DNA from: Candidatus Omnitrophota bacterium
GTDB lineage: Bacteria > Omnitrophota > JACPQZ01
Direction of reading: 5' to 3'
Assembly: GCA_016190205.1 (NCBI GenBank)
Contig: JACPQZ010000030.1
Location: 1-37,726, forward strand
Length of the DNA: 37,726 nt
Under the pieces are notes generated by a model. It was not told the origin of the DNA. It was given only the letters and a program-made list of their open reading frames with translations, and did no database searches. Positions 143-10,620 of the stretch are shown piece after piece. Each line of letters starts with the position of its first letter. Position 1 is the stretch's first letter. Both the position numbers and the translations under genes were made by a program.

Positions 143-3100
143 CTAGGCGTAGCTAGAGAGGACTTTCCGGAGGGTTTCGCGCAGCTGGTCGCTTGCGGGG
201 AATCGGTCGATGAAGCGGTCAAGCTGCTCAAGGATGCGCTGGGTTACCACGCGCACGCTGGAGGCGAGCTCCCCTGTCCAGCTATGGATTGAGGGGGAAG
301 GGAGAAAAATATGGAGCGGAAAGCCCAATTCTTTTACCTTGCTTTCCAATTTAACAAGATCCACTGCGCCGCCCGCGTGATCGTCCGCCCAATCCGAATA
401 GGCAATTTGGATGGTGCTGGCATTCACCTGCCCAGTAATACCGTCACCCTGGCCTAAGAGCTCGACTCGCACCAAGCCCAGATGGGGCAGTTGAATTTCC
501 GGCGAGGCGGCTACCGTCAAGAGCTCGTTTATATCTGCCGGCTGCATCAGGATCCCTTCAACCGTCTCCTTGAGACCGTCTCCTGACGCCGTATCTGCGG
601 GCCTAACGGCAGGAGTCACGTAAGACCTAAGTGTCGCGGCGACATCGACTTTACGTCCTGACCCAAACAGGATGATGTGCTCCTGCCCCAGCGTTGAAAG
701 ATATTCGATTGCTCCCTTGAGCGCCTGCACCTCACGATACAATTCTCTGTTGTCTGACGTACCGCGATCGCGTTCCATCGCGGCTATCACACGGTCTTTT
801 ACCAGATTGACAACAAGGCTCTCGCCCAACCCTTTCGGAAGAGCATCTCCGGCCCGCGCGTTTTTACTGACCCTATCAGTCGCCTCAAGTATTTTCTCCA
901 AGGCCCCTACATATTGTAACGGGGACCCTGGATCCGACACGACATCAACTGGAACCTGATCGAAAAGGGGAACGACCTGCGACCCGATCTCCGACAATAC
1001 CTCATGCACCCGCCGCGCCTCGTCAGCCGTCGCGGTGCGCAACCCGGCACCGTCCACACCGTCGCCTTGCGTTTCCTCCACCTGAACGCGCGATTCAATG
1101 TTTCTAAGAGTCCTATCCAAAATCACCATGTTGAGCTTAGTGTCGATGACGATATCGGAGGGATGGGCCCGGCCCAACAAGTGGATACGCATCTTGGTAT
1201 CATTTAAACTTTGCAATGCACGGTCATATATTTTGTTTTTGACGTAGCTTTCTGACAGGTGATTTCTCTCTGCTACAGCGGCGGCCTTCTCTGGAAAATG
1301 AGTAACCAATACATGGATGATAGTCAGGCGGTCCCGGAACAGGCCCCGAATCAGCTGGGCGCCCAGGTCCGGTGACGGGATTCGAACGTTCTCTCGGATC
1401 CCATCTTCTAAATCTGCCACTTGGTTCACCAGTTCTCTAAAGACCTGGTGATATGCTTGCTCGGCACCCTCTTCTGCTTCCAGACCCTGCCCGTTCACAG
1501 ACCGAAGTTTCCTGACGGCTGCTTCGACACGCTTTAATTCCGCAGCGGTATACATGACCAATGGAATGAGCGCCCTGATGGTTTCGTACGCTCCCACTTC
1601 CACCCCGTCTCCAGCTGCCTTCTGCGGCCGGGCTTCCTCGAACGCATTTTCCAGGGCCCGTTCGGCGCCCAGACAGACAAATTTATGCAGAGGGTTACCC
1701 GCCTGCCCGGCATGAACAGACTCAAGGAGCAGGAGTTCCCCGATGGCCTCAATTTCATCTTCAGTCGGTTTAAACCAGAAGTCCTCCCCTTTGAGCAACC
1801 GGACCAAGCGCTCGTAATGTCTTCTTTTTAGGGCTTCCGTCGAGTCAGCGTCATTCTGCGCCAAGCCCTTTTCCACTTGGCTTAAGATGGCGAAGGCAGG
1901 CTTCAGATGCGAGCTCACCCTGCTTTCAACCTCATCCAGCGGCACGTAGCGCATAAACAGAAAGGGTTGATCATAAACCGGGCTATTCAACCAGTCATCT
2001 CCTGCAACACCGTCCCCCGCCGCGCGATGTTCAGGCAGCTTTATGCTCGGATTAATTTTCTGCATAGTCTCCGCTAATTGAATCATCTTGAGCTCTTGAT
2101 CGAAAACGAGCTGGCCCGGCCCCAGTGCCGTGAGCGCGGTGAGAATGCCCCCGATGTAGCTCACAACCTGGATGGCTTCTTCGTAACTATCCGGATCGTC
2201 TCGGCCTACCAGAAAACTGATCCGCGCCAGCGTCCCGTAAAAAATATCGCTGATGAGCTGGGTGGAGACTTCGTGCGGTCCTGCCATGCGATGATACTCC
2301 CTCTCAAGGGATTTCACATGACCTTCGAGCAACTTCCGGAACGACGAGTACTCATGTAACGCAACATCGTAAACCCCGCGTCCCGATTCTGAATCCTCGT
2401 CCTGCGAGCCCCTCAAATAAATAAGGGCTGATTTGAGTTCTTTGAGATCGTGCACCAAGGGATAAAATCTCCAGCCGAGTTGAAGAACGCTTCTATCAAG
2501 TGCGGTGTAGCGGCTATCCCGTCCAAACCTCATGGGAGAAATTTCTGCTAAGACCTCCGAGGCCAGACCCATGATGAGGGCCTGTCGTTCATGCCCTTGG
2601 TCTAAGGCCTTTAAATGAAGGTAAACTGTGCGGCGGTAAAGAGCGGCAAGGGCCTGAACATCCAAGCCATTTTTTTCTATCGTCTCATCGAAGAAAGTGC
2701 GGAACGCAGCTCTCGAATCGTCTGCATCTAGGGCCTTAGGACCCGCGTATCGCATCTCTAACACAAAATTAAAAAATTCGCGCAGTACCCTGTCCCCTGC
2801 TAAATTCCCCGTGTCCGAAATCTCGCGCAGGTACCAACCTTTAATTCGCCCGCGATGACGGTACGCCAGCCAGACCGCAATAGGAAGGGTTATCACGAAC
2901 AGGAGGAGGGCCGCCGGCTGGATGAAGTATTGGGCGTATAAAGACACGCGCTCGCGGGACCTGTCTTGCAAATAACTATCGTGGTAGGGCTTGAAGCTGT
3001 CGGTTTCAGGACGAGGACCCAGCCCTTTCTCGTAAAGCGCCTGGGCCACTTTTTCCCCGGTTAGGCGCGCGTGGTGTTCATCCTCCATTAAAATGTCGTT

Positions 3101-6100
3101 CATCTTTAGCTCTAGGCGAGCGTTCGCGTACCGGTTCCAGAACCAGCTCGGAATTCGCCCGGCAGTGCGGGCCCGGATCCCACGTTCCGCATCATCGCGG
3201 GTCTTCACGTGCTCGAGCTCATGCGCGATAGTGGTTACTGCGATGGGGGCCTCACGATACACGTAATGTGGAAATGGCTCTCTGTCTTCTTCCTGAATCA
3301 TTCGCCGGGCCGCTTCCCATTTCGCACGCTCTTCGGGTTGGGCGGGATCCGGCCAGTTGGCGTAAGCAACCACAATCTCAAAAGTGCGGGTTCTGTGGTC
3401 GTAGGTACTCGTGTAAATACTCCCATCCAGCGCTTCGTTGCTGGTGTCGATTTTGGGAACTATTTTTATGCCCAGCCTTGAGATTTGATGACGAACATCG
3501 GGCATAACATCTTCCAAAAGATTGAGGGCTTCTTCAATCCGCTGTCGGCCCCACTCCATGTTCCACCCCTTCCAAACCCCCGAATCCTCCTCGGCAAGCT
3601 CCGAATAGCCGATGGTTCTTTCCTTGTAGAGAGGCGCATATTCCGTTTCCCAGCGTTCACCGCGCGCAATTTCCGCCTGGATCTTCCGCTCGCGCTCTTC
3701 CTCTTCCTGTTTCAGTCTTGCCAGCTCTTGATTCTTATATTCAATCCATTCCGGGGAGGGCTCCATCCCAGCATCTTCCAAAACCTCTTCCACCCGCTCT
3801 TCACCTGCAGGAATGATCGGCACGGTTGGTCCCTGTGCCGGCGCGCGTCCGGCCGTAAGAGCCATCACAGCCAGCGCCGCGGCGGCGAGAGGGGCACGGA
3901 TATGCCCTATGAGGCCGTCGCCCTGGCTTCCTCCGGAACGATCCGAGTCGTCCGGCCGGCCGGATCGCAGGCGCTCAACCCCAGACTTGGCTGCCGAGAC
4001 GATAACGGGTGACAGTACGGCTAAGATTATTAGACTCATGACTCCAAAAAAGGTCCACATCTCCCGGCGGATCTTCCGAACTTGCGCGGACTGGACGGTA
4101 TCCCACGCTTTTAACAAAATGTGATGGCCCAGTGCCGGCGGGGTATAAAACACGTAATGGGATCTTGGATCCTCTCCTGTCATCCGGGCCTCTTTCAAGG
4201 AGTCCGTCTCCCAGGGCACGGCAACCAGGGCATGAAGCGTCTTCGTCTTTGGATCGTACCATGCGGTTGGAATGGCGGGGTCCAGCACGAAAGGTTTTAG
4301 CTCAAAGGATACCTCCGGGCTAACGGTAATTCCGTGCTCGCGCAATAGCCCCATCACTTCCGAATCTGCCCGGTCAATAACGGTCGTGGTCCTCTTAAGT
4401 CGTGCGGCCTGCCAAGTGGATGAGGTGACCGTATCATATGAAAAGAGCTCGACTTCTCTTTCCTTCATCTCTCGTTCAAAGCGCTCCAGTGACATGCCTG
4501 CGGGAGGCGGGCCTGTATATCGCACCACGAGCGCCTTGCCATCCTCCCGCAGCTCGATCGTCCGGGTCGTGGCCTCCGAAACGGTTGACGGCCGCTCCTC
4601 ACGCTTTTCCGCCCCTTCGCGTAACAATGACTGCGTGTTCAACTCGAAAGCTCTTTGGAGCGGGCTGCCAGGGCTAAATGGCTGTGCGTATAACACAGCA
4701 CCCGTATTTAAAGCAAAGCCGGCCGCGAGGGTTAGCGCCGCAAACCGCGCCGCGCGCATGAAGCCGCCCGGCGCCCCGCTTAAGCCATCGCCAGCGGCCT
4801 CTACCCGCACTACCCTTCGCTCGCTCGCGCGGTAGATGTAGCGGGCCGGCTGGTTTCTCCAGCCATGTCTTTCAGCCAGGGTTTCGAGTGGTACTTCAAA
4901 CGCCTCTTTGAGACCCTGTGATGCTAAATCCGGCAGGCCGTGTATCAAGCGGTTCATGTGCAGGATGCGTGCGCTGATAGGTATGGGGCCATTCTCATCG
5001 CCGAAGCCTTCTACGACAAACTCTTCGGGTCCCACGCGCGTAACCGCCGTGAGCTTGGCTGCGCGATCAGGGCCGCGGATCTCATACCTCTTTCCGATCC
5101 GGAGGGGCCCTCGGGGCTCATGGCCGGGTCTTGCGAGGAATGTGGGTTCCCCATTCGTTACGCGGATATTTACGTCGGTGGCAAGCGTGCGCTGCGGATC
5201 ACCCTCCCACCAAAGCGGGACGGTGTAATAACCTGTTTCTAGGATTTCGTCGAAGCGGTCAAAGGGTTCGTAACCGCGAAGCATGATGGTATTCTGAAGC
5301 TCCCCTCCTGCAACCAGGCGCACGTCCCCACCCTCGTCTCCTTCCCCGACGACGAACATCTCATCCCCCACGGCCCTTAATACCAAGTAATTTTCTAAGT
5401 TCTCGGTTTCACTGATAAGGAGAAGTTCGCTGGCAAAATCTGATTTGCCTTGACTGCGCGTGATGGTCACCTTTCCCTCGCCGCGGCCAGCATAGTAGTC
5501 AGGCAGGATAAGCCTTTTCCCACTAAAATGTACGTAGGTCACGTCCAGCGTCCTGGGGAGGATGCCTATGTCTCTTATCCAACGGGCTAGCAACTCCCTA
5601 CGGTCGCTCCCACGCCCCGGCACTCCCAATACCCTGTCGCGGAAGTCGACAAATTCTGTATATCGGGTCAGTATCTGACGGTTCCATTCCAGCGGCCGTT
5701 CAGCCGATGATTCGCCTGGAATATTGACCCGCATGAGCGCCTTCGCACCCTGATCTTCGAAGATCACCTGTTGAGACACGTTGTCGGGATTGAACAGGAT
5801 CAAGCGGGGGTCTCCTCCTACCACCTCCCTCTTGACACGAACGCGCCCCACAAGCTCGTCCGGCAGGACAAGCATTTTCCTGTTTTTTGAAAAACCCAGC
5901 TCGGGGTAGAACACAACCCCTTCAGGCCCCTTGTCATAAAACGCCGCCTTCCGGTGCGTAACCTCCTGCTCGGCCAATCGCAGGGCTTTAGCCGGATCGT
6001 TTCCCCGGTATGGCGCGAGGGCCTTGGCGATCATTTGTTCCGGATTCAGTTCACGGATCTTACTTGCGAAATGACGAGCGCTTTGGGACCGGGGATCCTC

Positions 6101-7387
6101 ACCAGATGGGGCCAGTCGGATGTATCCCTTCGCAGCCTCCCCGCCCTCCTCGGCCGTGCTGGGATTTATGCGAGTTCGCTCACGCACGAGGTATAAAACC
6201 GGCTTTTGCACTTTTTTTCTTGATAGGGATTGAAAGTTCCTCACTCCCATAGCCACAATCACCGTGGCTTCATTCCAGGCTTCCTGAAATGTCGTTCCAA
6301 CTCCGGATTGGACGACTGAAAAAACGGTGTCTTCAGGCAACGCAAGGTTCCGGTCGAGGGTCTGCGCATTTTCGGACAGCCATGACCTTGCCTCCTCTGC
6401 TTGCATGGCGAGCCCTGCAGGACTTCCCTCAAGAGCCAGGGTTACCTGATGACCGGCCCGCACCAATTCGGACAGCAGGATAAGATCCACCGCAAATCCA
6501 CCCGCATGATTGGGGAACACTAACACATTCTGCTTGCGGCTGAAAAAATGATCCACTTCATCTTCCGGTGTGACCCAAACCCACTTTTCAGCTTTCAGCA
6601 AATCGGATGCATTATTCAGGAAGCGGTGTATTTCCCAACCCAGCAGCCTGGAAGGATCAGCCCCTTCGATCTTATTTAGCTCGCCGGGTATTCCGAGATC
6701 CAAGCCCGAGAACCACATGGAAAGAGCAAGCGCCCGGCTGATAGCCGTCGGCAAGGGCGCATGCGCAGTAGGCAATCGCCGAATGCGGAGGCTCGTCCGC
6801 TTGAGGTGGGGGAGAACAGTGTCATTGAGGAAACGTTTGGCGAGCCCAGGCGATCGGGTTTCTTCAAATGACTGCGGTTTTCCTTTTCGCTGAGCTGTGG
6901 TCTCAACCCCATCCCCAGCCAGCGGGGCACCGCCCCTCCGATTGAATTCATTGAATTCATCGTAGCCCGTCTCAACAGGACGGGCCTGGTGAGAGCCAGG
7001 GTCAATCTCAAAATACCCGTTCGGGGTAATTTGAATGGTGGATAGTCCGTTTTGGCGGGCGAGAAGCACTCCGTCGCCCTGAACGGATACCGACTCTATT
7101 TGGTTGAATTGTTCAAGATAGGTTGGATGAAGAGGTCTGTCTTCGCCGCTCCCGGCATGAAGAGGAAGCAAACGCCTGCGCAGTTCAGCGAGATCGGTTA
7201 CTCCCTGCTGGGCAAGTTGATAGATTCCGTCTCCCACTGCCTTTAAGGCATAGGCGCGTTGGAAGGACCTGTCTTGGGTTTGATCAGTGGGTGCGAGAGC
7301 TAAAGCAGGTTCAAGACCTATGGAGGTGAGGAAGAAGGCTTGGCAGACAAAGGCTGCGATACTTTTGAAAAAGTAATTGTAGGACAT
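143..7387 (-). CDS. Giant exported multimodule protein with GDG-motif linkers, degenerate DUF89-like domain and HExxH peptidase-like module
   Basis: The 2414-residue product has an N-terminal signal peptide (residues 1-31, ending ALALAP). Modules in order: a short region (32-160) with three GDG motifs; a DUF89/ARMT1-like fold (about 215-460) followed by beta-rich sequence to 865; module 2 (870-1155), with a signal-peptide-like segment at 877-902 and a membrane segment at 1110-1133; module 3 (1160-1515), with a second signal-like segment at 1162-1186, the zinc-peptidase motif HELEH at 1389-1393 and a membrane segment at 1485-1508 followed by RHRGRIKGW; then about 900 helical residues holding at least three degenerate copies of one domain. 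Ten x-G-D-G-[VLI] motifs punctuate the chain. Modules 2 and 3 are paralogous, but only module 3 has HExxH. The gene is last of four in an apparent operon, 39 bp after the previous stop. Function is not known; a cell-envelope peptidase or scaffold is a guess. Confidence 0.85.
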   Translation of the reverse strand: MSYNYFFKSIAAFVCQAFFLTSIGLEPALALAPTDQTQDRSFQRAYALKAVGDGIYQLAQQGVTDLAELRRRLLPLHAGSGEDRPLHPTYLEQFNQIESVSVQGDGVLLARQNGLSTIQITPNGYFEIDPGSHQARPVETGYDEFNEFNRRGGAPLAGDGVETTAQRKGKPQSFEETRSPGLAKRFLNDTVLPHLKRTSLRIRRLPTAHAPLPTAISRALALSMWFSGLDLGIPGELNKIEGADPSRLLGWEIHRFLNNASDLLKAEKWVWVTPEDEVDHFFSRKQNVLVFPNHAGGFAVDLILLSELVRAGHQVTLALEGSPAGLAMQAEEARSWLSENAQTLDRNLALPEDTVFSVVQSGVGTTFQEAWNEATVIVAMGVRNFQSLSRKKVQKPVLYLVRERTRINPSTAEEGGEAAKGYIRLAPSGEDPRSQSARHFASKIRELNPEQMIAKALAPYRGNDPAKALRLAEQEVTHRKAAFYDKGPEGVVFYPELGFSKNRKMLVLPDELVGRVRVKREVVGGDPRLILFNPDNVSQQVIFEDQGAKALMRVNIPGESSAERPLEWNRQILTRYTEFVDFRDRVLGVPGRGSDRRELLARWIRDIGILPRTLDVTYVHFSGKRLILPDYYAGRGEGKVTITRSQGKSDFASELLLISETENLENYLVLRAVGDEMFVVGEGDEGGDVRLVAGGELQNTIMLRGYEPFDRFDEILETGYYTVPLWWEGDPQRTLATDVNIRVTNGEPTFLARPGHEPRGPLRIGKRYEIRGPDRAAKLTAVTRVGPEEFVVEGFGDENGPIPISARILHMNRLIHGLPDLASQGLKEAFEVPLETLAERHGWRNQPARYIYRASERRVVRVEAAGDGLSGAPGGFMRAARFAALTLAAGFALNTGAVLYAQPFSPGSPLQRAFELNTQSLLREGAEKREERPSTVSEATTRTIELREDGKALVVRYTGPPPAGMSLERFEREMKEREVELFSYDTVTSSTWQAARLKRTTTVIDRADSEVMGLLREHGITVSPEVSFELKPFVLDPAIPTAWYDPKTKTLHALVAVPWETDSLKEARMTGEDPRSHYVFYTPPALGHHILLKAWDTVQSAQVRKIRREMWTFFGVMSLIILAVLSPVIVSAAKSGVERLRSGRPDDSDRSGGSQGDGLIGHIRAPLAAAALAVMALTAGRAPAQGPTVPIIPAGEERVEEVLEDAGMEPSPEWIEYKNQELARLKQEEEERERKIQAEIARGERWETEYAPLYKERTIGYSELAEEDSGVWKGWNMEWGRQRIEEALNLLEDVMPDVRHQISRLGIKIVPKIDTSNEALDGSIYTSTYDHRTRTFEIVVAYANWPDPAQPEERAKWEAARRMIQEEDREPFPHYVYREAPIAVTTIAHELEHVKTRDDAERGIRARTAGRIPSWFWNRYANARLELKMNDILMEDEHHARLTGEKVAQALYEKGLGPRPETDSFKPYHDSYLQDRSRERVSLYAQYFIQPAALLLFVITLPIAVWLAYRHRGRIKGWYLREISDTGNLAGDRVLREFFNFVLEMRYAGPKALDADDSRAAFRTFFDETIEKNGLDVQALAALYRRTVYLHLKALDQGHERQALIMGLASEVLAEISPMRFGRDSRYTALDRSVLQLGWRFYPLVHDLKELKSALIYLRGSQDEDSESGRGVYDVALHEYSSFRKLLEGHVKSLEREYHRMAGPHEVSTQLISDIFYGTLARISFLVGRDDPDSYEEAIQVVSYIGGILTALTALGPGQLVFDQELKMIQLAETMQKINPSIKLPEHRAAGDGVAGDDWLNSPVYDQPFLFMRYVPLDEVESRVSSHLKPAFAILSQVEKGLAQNDADSTEALKRRHYERLVRLLKGEDFWFKPTEDEIEAIGELLLLESVHAGQAGNPLHKFVCLGAERALENAFEEARPQKAAGDGVEVGAYETIRALIPLVMYTAAELKRVEAAVRKLRSVNGQGLEAEEGAEQAYHQVFRELVNQVADLEDGIRENVRIPSPDLGAQLIRGLFRDRLTIIHVLVTHFPEKAAAVAERNHLSESYVKNKIYDRALQSLNDTKMRIHLLGRAHPSDIVIDTKLNMVILDRTLRNIESRVQVEETQGDGVDGAGLRTATADEARRVHEVLSEIGSQVVPLFDQVPVDVVSDPGSPLQYVGALEKILEATDRVSKNARAGDALPKGLGESLVVNLVKDRVIAAMERDRGTSDNRELYREVQALKGAIEYLSTLGQEHIILFGSGRKVDVAATLRSYVTPAVRPADTASGDGLKETVEGILMQPADINELLTVAASPEIQLPHLGLVRVELLGQGDGITGQVNASTIQIAYSDWADDHAGGAVDLVKLESKVKELGFPLHIFLPSPSIHSWTGELASSVRVVTQRILEQLDRFIDRFPASDQLRETLRKVLSSYA
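638..2359 (-). repeat. Three degenerate copies of a helical domain at the giant protein's C-terminal part
   Basis: Around residues 1677-1775, 1978-2095 and 2160-2250 the same helical pattern recurs. The first two copies share a FR.L...V..LE core, then STQLISDIFYGTLARISFLV in copy 1 and GAQLIRGLFRDRLTIIHVLV in copy 2; copy 3 has GESLVVNLVKDRVIAAMERD. Copies 1 and 2 both end near an L..L...(I/V)..D.KL.MI.L..T pattern. Each copy is followed by a GDG motif at 1791, 2108 and 2269. Found by eye; divergence is high. Confidence 0.5.
6008..6745 (-). other. DUF89/ARMT1-like domain with altered metal-binding residues (inside the giant gene)
   Basis: Residues 215-460 of the giant protein follow the DUF89 (damage-control phosphatase) pattern: an ALALS..FSGLDLG helix where the family has a GNxxDxG-like site, FPNHAGGFAVDLILL where it has a DNxGExxFD strand, EGSPAGLAMQAEEA where it has a GxPxxNDAxxxDA motif, and AMGVRNFQSL where it has KGxGNFExL. 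The asparagine-aspartate pairs and lysine expected at the metal and phosphate site are mostly replaced. The fold is probably kept and catalysis probably lost. The assignment is by motif recall, not by a profile search. Confidence 0.55.
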
Positions 7388-7426: not shown

Positions 7427-10426
7427 TTACGCCTTGATGATAAGTTTGGCGTTGCCGATCCTGATGTGATGGAGCTTGAGCCGCTCCTGCTCGATCGAGG
7501 GAGGGGGAAGCGCCTCTACCGCTTCGCCGATCAAGGCCAGGAAGTAAGCGCGGATGTTAATATCCTTGATGTCCCGAACATCCTCAACCTTGATGAGTTC
7601 GTTCAAGAGCTCTATATCGCTCACGACGCTATATGGATTCAGGAGATAAAATTCGAGGCCGAACGCCTGGTGGCGCGTGCCCAGCTCGAAGTCCCTAAAG
7701 CGGGAGGACTGGATTTCAGCCGGAGTGAGTATGAAAACGGCCGTGGTCCCTTCGAGGGCTTTGACGATTCCCGTTTCATCCTCCGAATCCCATTCGACGA
7801 TGGCGCCCTGCGGCACCTCGGTACGTATTTCGGTGAAAAGGGCGCGCTGTTCGCCCACCAACGACTCATGGCTATAAACGATGCGCGCGCTGGAAGGCAC
7901 GAGGGGCTTGATCACAACACCCCTGGCCCCTTCCAGAGTCTCCAACGCGCGCGCCGCGAATAACCTGTCTAAGATGCGGGAGCGCGTATCTTGAACCACG
8001 CGGGCGAGCGCCTCAACAGCACGCCCCAGTTTCGTTCGCAGGACTGTGGCTGGGACACCAGGAATAGAAAGCCCCGTTGTAGTTTGTCCCTGCCCTGCGT
8101 CAGTCGGCGCGACGCCGAACCCTTTAAGTATGTCTTCAGCGATCCGCGCGTTTTGCGGCCGGTCTTCAAGTTCAAGCCTTACCACAGCTTCAATCGCCTC
8201 CCTCTCCTCGGCCGGTTGGGCGGAAAGATCCACTTCCTTGAGTTGATTAAGGGACGCTTCTCTCACTTCAGGCTCCGGGTGGAAAGCGAACGCTCGGGCA
8301 AGCTGTACCTTCTGCGGCGTCTCGGCGTTGGGGCCCAATCCTTCCAAAACGGCGAGCGCTGTTCGGGGAGGAACCGTCTCCGGCCCTGTCACGAGCGCCG
8401 TGATTTGGGCACCCACCTCACCCTCAAGCGCGCGGGCTTCCTCAAGCTTTCCAGATTGTGCAAGCGTTCCAAGCTCACGCGCCAGCTCCTCCGCAGCCCT
8501 TAAGTTTAGAGTGCGTGGAGCCCCGGAGTCAGCCAAAAATTCCCGTGCGAGTTCCACCCTTCCCTGCCCTGTGGTCAATACGGTTTCAAACGCGATGAGC
8601 CGGAGCGGCTCCGGAACTTCGGGACTGCGCAGGATGCGATCAAGAGTCCGCCGTGCGCCTTCCGTAACTCTCTCCTGCGGAGGCGCCAACCGTTCCACCT
8701 GCGCGCGCTCGGCTAAAGCAATCAAGGCCTCCTGAACAGCCTCTTCCTGCCCCGCTTCAAAAACCGCGACCATGCCGCGTACGAGTGTTTCCTCCGTTGC
8801 TAGGTCTATAACCGGTGATTCACGAACGGTCTCGACGACGGCACTCTGCGCCACTGCTTGCACCGCAGTGATCCTGGAAACTTGCCCCGGCGTGGCAAGG
8901 CTTACAAATGGGGACATCTGCAAAAATGCCGCCTGGGGTCCCAGGACTCGTTGAATCGCCTCACCCGCCGCATTCCCGAATTCCGGACTTTCCAAAATCT
9001 GTCTGGCCTCTGCCGCTTCTTCTTCTGCCCGCGCAACGAGACGAGCAAACTCTGCAGGCGAAGGCGCTTGCACGGTGACCACGCTTGTTGCGATCTGCGG
9101 ACCTCCCCTCGTTCCCAACGGCCCGCCCAGGAGCGCGAGCTCCTGTCCCGCGCGCCCGACCTCTTTCCCGAAACCAGTCAGGCGTAGACTGGGTTCAGCG
9201 GAAATCCCTGCCCGGCCTTCCTCGAATTCGACCAGCCCGCGCTGCTTAAGCCTTTCCGCGGCCTCCAAAACTACCCCTGACGGTTCTACAGGGCCCTCCA
9301 GCCCAAAGCCCATGCCGACCATCTGTGCCGTCACTTCACGCAAAGAAACCGGAGCCTCTGCTTCCCCCAGCACACCCAAAAGGGCGCTTTCCGTCTGGAG
9401 AGAAAAATTATTCCCGGAAGCTCGCGTCCCAGGACTCGTCCCAGCAGAACTTTGTGCAACGCCCTGCGAAGATTGCCCCAGCTCTCTGGCGCCCTCCTTT
9501 AGGGCAAGCAAATCCACGGTTCCGCCCAGACGGATACCTAAAGCGATGAGTTCGGAGTCAGACTCTGTGGTCGCTCTTTCGACCTTCTGAAAATCCTCCG
9601 GTGAGAGAACTATGAAAGGTTGCGCTTCCTGCGGTGCGGCCAAACCCACGGCGGCCGCGGGAAGTCCCTGTCCGGGAATAGGCTCCTGGCCCCTGACAAA
9701 ACGCTCGATAATTCCGGGTGTTCGTAATGTGGGCTCGATACGCTCATAGGAAACCTCCCCAACCCGCCCGACTCCAACGGGGTAAATGACTTCGATGGGC
9801 TTCTCGCCTGCCAATCTCCTTGCCTCATTTACCGCCGAAAGGGCTTCGCCCTCACTTAAGCCCTCAAACGCCTCCACCACCTCCTGTTGAGTTACGCCCG
9901 TCTCATCGGCCAAAGCATCCAAAGAGACCACAGGCTGGCGCATATTTACAAATATGCGGGTAAGGAGCGGGGAGATCATCGCGGGCGTTCCCTCCGCCTG
10001 CCCGGGAGGTACCACGGGGAAAAGCCCCGGTCTCGCGGGACCTTCTCCGCCCGGAGGAGCAGGCAGGACCGTGCGCGTTACTTTAATCCCCTGCCCGGCC
10101 TGGCGGCTTGCTTCCGCAAGGCGTGCAGCCAGGGTATCCCGGATCTCGGCCAGTTCCCGGCCCCTCGGGTCAAGCTCTTCATCCAGGCTGATCTCAAGTT
10201 TTGCCAGTTCATTTTCTACCAGACGGAGACCATCCCCAAAGGCCTGCGCCGCCTCGACGTAGCGCCCCTTTTGGACCAAGACATCTCCCTCGGCCTGAAG
10301 AAAACGGGCCTGGGTGGCCACTTCCCCCGTCGCCGTCTCCGGCGCGATGGCCTGGGCATAATCCGCGTTCATCACGCTGAAGGTTATGAGACAAGGCAAA
10401 CATAAAATCTTCCAAAGTGCTTTCAT
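7427..10426 (-). CDS. Exported helical-repeat protein (TPR/HEAT-like) of unknown function
   Basis: About 999 residues. I chose the ATG at 10426: AAGGAG lies 8 nt upstream, whereas the alternative TTG at 10432 is only 2 nt from it. The ATG also overlaps the previous stop as ATGA. A signal peptide (first about 28 residues, ending AQAIA) is followed by a TPR-like helical stretch (about 40-110) containing FGDGL, a proline-rich linker, a helix-turn-helix-like segment (about 167-190, SLDALADETGVTQQEVVEAF), a winged-helix-like segment (about 346-425), a long HEAT-like alpha-repeat region (about 455-775) and a mixed alpha/beta end (about 830-1001). No catalytic motif was recognised. The HTH resemblance may be coincidental, since the protein looks exported. 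It lies between the 65-residue membrane protein and the giant gene in one operon. Confidence 0.8.
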   Translation of the reverse strand: MKALWKILCLPCLITFSVMNADYAQAIAPETATGEVATQARFLQAEGDVLVQKGRYVEAAQAFGDGLRLVENELAKLEISLDEELDPRGRELAEIRDTLAARLAEASRQAGQGIKVTRTVLPAPPGGEGPARPGLFPVVPPGQAEGTPAMISPLLTRIFVNMRQPVVSLDALADETGVTQQEVVEAFEGLSEGEALSAVNEARRLAGEKPIEVIYPVGVGRVGEVSYERIEPTLRTPGIIERFVRGQEPIPGQGLPAAAVGLAAPQEAQPFIVLSPEDFQKVERATTESDSELIALGIRLGGTVDLLALKEGARELGQSSQGVAQSSAGTSPGTRASGNNFSLQTESALLGVLGEAEAPVSLREVTAQMVGMGFGLEGPVEPSGVVLEAAERLKQRGLVEFEEGRAGISAEPSLRLTGFGKEVGRAGQELALLGGPLGTRGGPQIATSVVTVQAPSPAEFARLVARAEEEAAEARQILESPEFGNAAGEAIQRVLGPQAAFLQMSPFVSLATPGQVSRITAVQAVAQSAVVETVRESPVIDLATEETLVRGMVAVFEAGQEEAVQEALIALAERAQVERLAPPQERVTEGARRTLDRILRSPEVPEPLRLIAFETVLTTGQGRVELAREFLADSGAPRTLNLRAAEELARELGTLAQSGKLEEARALEGEVGAQITALVTGPETVPPRTALAVLEGLGPNAETPQKVQLARAFAFHPEPEVREASLNQLKEVDLSAQPAEEREAIEAVVRLELEDRPQNARIAEDILKGFGVAPTDAGQGQTTTGLSIPGVPATVLRTKLGRAVEALARVVQDTRSRILDRLFAARALETLEGARGVVIKPLVPSSARIVYSHESLVGEQRALFTEIRTEVPQGAIVEWDSEDETGIVKALEGTTAVFILTPAEIQSSRFRDFELGTRHQAFGLEFYLLNPYSVVSDIELLNELIKVEDVRDIKDINIRAYFLALIGEAVEALPPPSIEQERLKLHHIRIGNAKLIIKA

Positions 10427-10620
10427 TTCCAAATCTCCTTAAATGCCGCCAGGACAAGAAACGACAGCGCGTATATTCCGACCACAATAATGGGGCGTCC
10501 CATCACGAGGCTCATGACGATCAAGTTGACAGCGGCCGCATGGGAAGGGTGGCTCAAGAGGCCTGGTCTAAGTCCAGTGTAGTCCTGGGCGGTGCGCCGG
10601 TACCAGGGTTTAGATGTCAT
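10423..10620 (-). CDS. Small membrane protein, 65 residues, unknown function
   Basis: The start codon overlaps the previous gene's TGA (ATGA at 10620-10617) and its own TGA overlaps the next start (ATGA at 10426-10423). Translational coupling on both sides supports a real gene. The N-terminal half is polar with several Arg and His; residues about 30-60 are hydrophobic (VNLIVMSLVMGRPIIVVGIY onward), giving one long or two short membrane segments, and the end is KEIWK. No family recognised. The position suggests a membrane partner of the exported proteins on either side. Confidence 0.7.
   Translation of the reverse strand: MTSKPWYRRTAQDYTGLRPGLLSHPSHAAAVNLIVMSLVMGRPIIVVGIYALSFLVLAAFKEIWK

Follow-up and report, generated by a model that had tools for sequence, protein, structure and literature searches.

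The window, a stretch of 37,726 nucleotides from an Omnitrophota genome (G000), carries on its minus strand a 2414-residue exported protein (P0001) in which the short motif GDG[VLI] occurs ten times. What does this motif mark, is it confined to one protein, and what could read it? A sequence-only reading took it for a mark of module borders and proposed a processing site for a dedicated protease, a structural hinge or the scar of a gene-joining mechanism. Our results suggest lineage-specific tags as the places where giant bacterial proteins are recognised and probably divided into separate proteins.

Motif copies and modules of the window protein

P0001 has no Pfam match at E<0.1. GDG is found in its minus-strand ORF at residues 52, 104, 158, 866, 1156, 1791, 1926, 2108, 2269 and 2314, exactly where the sequence-only reading had listed it, and each of the ten has V, L or I as its next residue; the codons used vary from copy to copy. 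Less than one copy had been expected by chance, and 5000 shuffles of P0001 agree (mean 0.17 GDG[VLI], maximum 4). The preceding position, assumed to be arbitrary, does vary (A four times, Q four times, V and S in P0001) but is not fully free: small and polar residues dominate, with S in 12, Q in 12, A in 10 and R in 10 of the 66 sites found genome-wide. The features of P0001 are as follows.

143..7387, minus strand: P0001, 2414-aa exported mosaic protein with ten GDG[VLI]
7295..7387, minus strand: signal-peptide-like N-terminal segment, residues 1-31, ending LEPALALAP (hydropathy peak at 7-31)
7223..7234, minus strand: GDGI, residue 52
7067..7078, minus strand: GDGV, residue 104
6905..6916, minus strand: GDGV, residue 158, border preceding the ARMT1-like module
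6176..6619, minus strand: ARMT1-like (damage-control phosphatase-like) stretch, residues 257-404
4781..4792, minus strand: GDGL, residue 866, border followed by a signal-like hydrophobic segment (FMRAARFAALTLAAGFALNTGAVLYAQ)
3923..4780, minus strand: module with a degenerate metallopeptidase region (ALGHHILLKAWD) and a C-terminal transmembrane segment (residues 1112-1130)
3911..3922, minus strand: GDGL, residue 1156, border, with a hydrophobic segment starting at residue 1159
2798..3910, minus strand: metallopeptidase-like module with an intact HELEH (residues 1389-1393, HExxH scan) and a transmembrane segment at 1489-1507
2006..2017, minus strand: GDGV, residue 1791, border, predicted coil (low-confidence model)
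1601..1612, minus strand: GDGV, residue 1926, border, predicted coil (low-confidence model)
1055..1066, minus strand: GDGV, residue 2108, border, predicted coil (low-confidence model)
572..583, minus strand: GDGL, residue 2269, border preceding the C-terminal module (low-confidence model)
437..448, minus strand: GDGI, residue 2314
167..505, minus strand: C-terminal module, residues 2295-2407, common to another GDG protein of the genome

The ARMT1-like stretch resembles ARMT1-like proteins of relatives (E 1.6e-5 to 9e-4) and has weak matches to NCBIfam NF041594 (E 0.0098) and PDB 2ffj (E 0.08). The modules at 3923-4780 and 2798-3910 are related (24% identity, E 1e-4), and both open with hydrophobic segments directly after GDGL 866 and GDGL 1156. 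These tandem membrane-anchored metallopeptidase-like modules look like a dead/live pair, the zinc motif being lost in the first (ALGHHILLKAWD) and HELEH kept in the second. Weakly similar modules also flank GDGV 2108, each ending at its own GDG. The C-terminal module has a homologue at G000:C34:125038-125370 (33% identity, E 9e-7; E 2e-12 in a second comparison).

Comparison with proteins of the same genome helps to sort the copies. A 1142-aa protein (L033) has GDGLY matching residue 52 of P0001, likewise located past a signal peptide, and in its related N-terminal region it carries GEGV in place of GDGV 104. GEG also replaces GDGI 2314 in the homologous C-terminal module of a 984-aa protein (L033), and 2314 is placed between two strands in a low-confidence model. 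Two AlphaFold models were built without alignment (pLDDT 41.5 and 31.7) and used for secondary structure only. From these comparisons copies 104 and 2314 are probably intradomain (2314 in a turn) rather than borders. Since they match intradomain GEG of same-genome homologues, about eight of the ten P0001 copies are good border candidates.

The neighbouring ORF (7427-10432, minus strand) codes for a 1001-aa, exported-looking protein with a signal-like start (..YAQAIAPE), no Pfam family except a weak TPR match, and a single GDGL within the TPR-like region.

The GDG tag throughout the genome

The assembly of G000 comprises 1.65 Mb in 76 contigs. Scanning all of it at the DNA level with the pattern GGNGAYGGNNTN gave 264 matches against 125 for the reversed control, and this is the unbiased figure for the genome. 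In the 629 kb sampled, a class of 14 proteins (22,342 aa) contains 66 GDG[VLIM] against 2.1 by shuffling (maximum 6). The number of these proteins is not an unbiased rate, because the class consists of ORFs with at least two GDG[VLIM] and the sampled stretches were partly picked by GDG matches. The most enriched word in the GDG set has p 8e-42, while ordinary G000 proteins go down to 2e-9. None of GGD, DGG, GEG, GSG, ADG and GDG[ASTP] is enriched in the 14 proteins. V, L, I or M follows 66 of their 68 GDG, while the fourth residue is free in the remaining proteins.

Most complete GDG proteins start with a hydrophobic signal-like segment, as judged from hydropathy, and cysteine makes up 0.17% of the 14 proteins versus 1.03% of the others. 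Hydrophobic N-termini and cysteine depletion together suggest that these large proteins are mostly exported. A related alpha/beta module recurs at the C-termini of GDG proteins. Their ends are mostly small residues (..WWAA, ..LSA, ..FSA, ..SSYA, ..IAA), and giants of other lineages likewise often terminate in AA or SA; such termini could act as a C-terminal sorting signal. The 14-mer CGCTCCGAAGGGCG is repeated many times in this genome on both strands, in several cases at contig ends (C5, C8, C24, C30, C36, C49, C59, C70 and others). It is an interspersed DNA repeat and may have broken the assembly.

Tags lie between domains

The claim that the motif marks module borders is strongly supported and reaches at least 13 further proteins of the genome. 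In eight proteins, none of 39 GDG sites falls within a Pfam domain against 11.4 expected (0 of 20000 permutations gave as low a number), and eight sites lie within 25 aa past a domain end against 1.8 expected (P 0.00035), several times only 3-15 residues downstream. Residues flanking the sites are depleted in order-promoting types (p 1.6e-9).

Individual proteins illustrate the arrangement. In the 1142-aa protein (contig C34) four domains occupy separate intervals between tags, namely two tandem CsrA copies, a receiver and NAGPA. Acetyl-CoA synthetase (2154-2791) of a 4268-aa protein occupies the interval between tags 2115 and 2832; a glutamate-dehydrogenase-like domain and PGM of the same protein end 15 and 14 residues upstream of a tag. 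A tag at 1511 comes 3 residues after the end of PanB (1508), and one at 1627 comes 6 residues after the end of ROK (1621). Thus several unrelated Pfam enzyme modules share one ORF, as independent units of a polyprotein would. Some tags are paired, 5-19 residues apart, with no module in between. Not all borders are tagged; in L050, for example, GAPDH and TIM adjoin with no tag between them. N-terminal GDG copies in several other proteins correspond to GEG in related proteins or lie in strand-like surroundings within a conserved terminal domain, so some copies beyond P0001 also look intradomain by comparison with homologues.

The L050 protein (L050:112-6006, G000:C31, 1965 aa) unites phosphoglycerate-mutase-like (His_Phos), GAPDH and TIM modules in one ORF, like a fused glycolysis operon. 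Its TIM module looks circularly permuted: the active-site motif EPVFAIGTG (residue 1570) stands ahead of NWK (1710), which is the N-terminal motif, and the module begins with Pfam TIM positions 113-243. Stand-alone ordinary GAPDH and TIM are also encoded in G000; the copies in the 1965-aa protein match far more weakly and retain SCTTN and EPVFAIGTG. Judging from such matches, part of the modules can be regarded as divergent second copies. CsrA was found in G000 only within the 1142-aa polyprotein. Our guess, which agrees with what has been published about the phylum, would be that the exported modules target a partner or a prey cell.

A strict motif maintained at the protein level

The 57 one-residue variants of GDG followed by [VLIM] occur 78 times against 83.9 expected, i.e., at background. 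The 66 GDG are encoded by 28 different 9-mers with codons matching genome usage, and 25 tags of another genome (G055) have 25 different DNA words. The background level of the variants shows the motif to be strict, and the ordinary codon usage shows that it is maintained at the protein level; the sequence-only reading had proposed the latter from differing codons, and the genome-wide data strongly support it. The flanks of the sites are not similar to each other and no halo of decayed motif copies surrounds them; the lack of decaying copies speaks against a scar as well as against a loosely constrained linker.

Other lineages of the phylum use other tags

Relatives were searched within the same phylum, none of them being from the same family. 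Raw DNA counts of GDG[VLIMF] in 58 relatives were ambiguous, as composition and ordinary proteins dominate them, so the giants themselves had to be searched. These were located via the ARMT1 and NAGPA families and then searched de novo for enriched words. The resulting table of tags over 23 genomes is nearly block-diagonal (observed against expected counts):

GDG[VLIM]: 66 against 2.2 in G000; at most 2 in other genomes (both in G077, 0.2 expected)
R[SAPT]E[LVAMTI]R: 125 against 2.5 across seven genomes of families f2, f7 and f15; 0 in the other sixteen genomes
[AS]SLG: 14 against 1.1 in two f12 genomes
[GA]LE[EK]: 26 against 2.2 in two f25 genomes
SSSP (tag SSSP[LIF]): 19 against 0.2 in G126 (f16) and G106 (f38)

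All 14 SSSP in G126 are followed by L, I or V. As a whole-genome pattern RSExR gave 158 matches versus 24 for the control in G055 and stayed at background level in the other tag lineages. The relatives' tags also avoid Pfam domains: 0 of 12 GLEE (P 0.011), 0 of 8 SLG, 0 of 8 ELR and 0 of 14 SSSP/SSP sites, overlapping matches counted (SSSP P 0.003), lie inside one. ARMT1-like modules recur in giants bearing four tags (ELR-type, GLEE, SLG and SSSP). For G027, G043, G058, G077, G004 and G085 it is the match with their relatives' tags that carries weight and not the p-values of these genomes themselves, since the best word of ordinary proteins in control draws already reaches p ~2e-9. The same search found no clear tag in about ten genomes with giants (G022, G081, G090, G122, G125, G127, G131, G020, G129 and G010), where it may be absent or too variable. 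Enriched words in G017 (RCC1-like repeats), G129 and G093 were rejected as coming from repeats, not borders.

The window was placed by a RecA tree that included own-phylum genomes. Twenty own-phylum genomes and two named Omnitrophota form one clade in it (100/100), separate from the 27 RecA sequences that represent other phyla. In the same tree G029, G055 and G049, the genomes with RSExR, form a clade adjoining the SLG genomes G027 and G043. The window protein had no match in a scan against the named genomes.

Absence of the motif from homologues had been named as grounds for abandoning the border idea. For GDG this absence is literally what we see, yet at comparable positions the relatives carry another tag, and this speaks for a border that is recognised.

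Very long ORFs also surround some ARMT1-like or NAGPA modules: those in G106:C3, G078:C2, G093:C3 and G076:C5, with 44,856, 42,913, 37,731 and 33,383 aa respectively, are among the longest ORFs reported.

How the tags could be read

Unrelated modules share one strict tag per genome and this tag changes between clades, so we infer a reader acting in trans. Each genome would have one such factor reading its own tag, most likely an endoprotease cutting the linkers after or during export. Once cut, enzyme-like modules such as CsrA, receiver, NAGPA, acetyl-CoA synthetase, PGM, GAPDH, TIM and the metallopeptidases would become proteins of their own, and where tags are paired the linker between them would be excised. 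The tag would be uniform within a genome because one enzyme reads all sites, and would shift between clades as the enzyme changes or gets replaced. HExxH modules within two of the polyproteins are possible candidates for the protease, and candidates only. On balance we lean towards GDG[VLI] being the lineage's module-border tag in large, mostly exported bacterial polyproteins, probably cut by a protease. The broader proposal is a phylum-wide system. In it, exported enzyme modules would be synthesised as giant chains, a dedicated protease would cut these at a tag used throughout the genome, and as the phylum evolved tag and protease would have switched in concert several times, yielding orthogonal pairs; we would put this slightly short of an even chance.

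Cleavage is the simplest reading, as it explains the border position, the independent enzyme modules, the internal signal-like segments past tags and the close tag pairs. It is nevertheless our interpretation, and binding or modification in trans would fit the same data. The tag could be read uncut as a docking, anchoring, cross-linking or modification site, one per border, for instance in assembly of a surface coat such as the one suggested for the giant protein of V. archaeovorus (PMC10066038). This would account equally well for the strictness, the single tag per genome and the switch between lineages, but by itself it leaves unexplained why tags stand between independent enzymes and why close pairs exist, and the tags have no side chain in common on which one chemistry could act (GDGV lacks S, T, K and C); we regard this alternative as rather unlikely. 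Chemical diversity of the tags bears on cleavage too: they are so different that one protease family shifting its specificity is not self-evident.

A mere structural linker or hinge, with GDG as a favoured turn between domains, would agree with the shortage of order-promoting residues around the sites and with the coil predicted in the low-confidence model. Linkers tolerate substitution, however, and the one-residue variants are at background; moreover, RSExR, GLEE and SSSP are no turn equivalents of GDG, and each is exclusive to its own clade. We therefore consider a plain hinge improbable. The scar of DNA-level gene joining or module shuffling (a recombination site, mobile linker or uptake sequence) might seem to suit modules with a shuffled, operon-like appearance (a single ORF holds His_Phos, GAPDH and TIM), but it is contradicted by the variety of DNA words behind the GDG and G055 tags, the dissimilar flanks and the missing decayed copies, which makes it hardly credible. 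Least credible of all are chance and the known calcium-binding loops (dockerin, thrombospondin type 3, FG-GAP). An unrelated G000 protein (L040) does have RDGDGLPD of the loop type, but the tag sites lack the DxDxDG pattern and lie outside such Pfam domains, and the shuffled counts given above dispose of chance. Among the three mechanisms offered by the sequence-only reading, a dedicated protease is thus the best remaining one, deduced as it is from the pattern of sites; the scar is at odds with the data and a plain hinge fails to explain strict, clade-specific tags.

Few known proteins are as long as the giants of Omnitrophota, and the literature leaves open whether these stay intact and what they do. 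With a strict border tag they can be split into units for annotation, expression and structure solving, and whether giants are ever one molecule becomes testable using existing mass-spectrometry data; proteome data of V. archaeovorus are public (PXD025008, cited in PMC12583861). Should a protease read the tags, these proteins would count as bacterial polyproteins, and the system would offer new site-specific proteases with differing specificities.

Comparison with known systems

The window protein belongs to the same phylum and the same very long, poorly annotated type as the giant ORFs described in Omnitrophota, such as the 39,678-aa one of V. archaeovorus, many of which have transmembrane segments and for which adhesion, coat or polysaccharide degradation was proposed (PMC10066038). 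The accounts compared here (PMC10066038, PMC12057145, PMC11573180) describe how large these proteins are, how few domains they have and which roles were suggested for them (adhesion, coat or predation); none of the three speaks of a border motif, of polyprotein processing or of a tag specific to a lineage. We found no literature on Omnitrophota and polyproteins; the original V. archaeovorus paper and a giant-gene preprint lie outside this comparison, and earlier priority is possible.

Polyproteins with peptides at unit borders are known from plastids. Those of Euglena (RbcS, LHCP) have an N-terminal signal sequence and several mature units, with decapeptide linkers excised by a peptidase (PMC4938576). 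The Omnitrophota giants are alike in having an N-terminal targeting-like segment, several units per chain and a conserved short peptide between units: the segment is seen here from hydropathy and cysteine depletion, and the peptide is shared by different polyproteins. Euglena is eukaryotic, its units are copies of one protein, the linker has ten residues and cleavage was demonstrated, whereas the system described here is bacterial, with unrelated modules, a tag of 3-5 residues varying by clade and cleavage deduced from sequence. Light-harvesting polyproteins of dinoflagellates carry SPLR at unit borders, cut at the arginine in Amphidinium and common to several polyproteins (PMC3480386). The likeness lies in a four-residue border motif shared among several polyproteins; the differences are that the units are homologous and plastid, that one motif serves across the genera named there and that the organisms are not bacteria.

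The dependence of the tag on clade resembles that of cleavage sites in viral polyproteins. For nepovirus 3C-like proteases, for example, cleavage specificity is reported to be uniform per virus and to differ between clades (PMC9741568). The viral protease is known and is encoded within the polyprotein, whereas one tag is common here to many bacterial genes.
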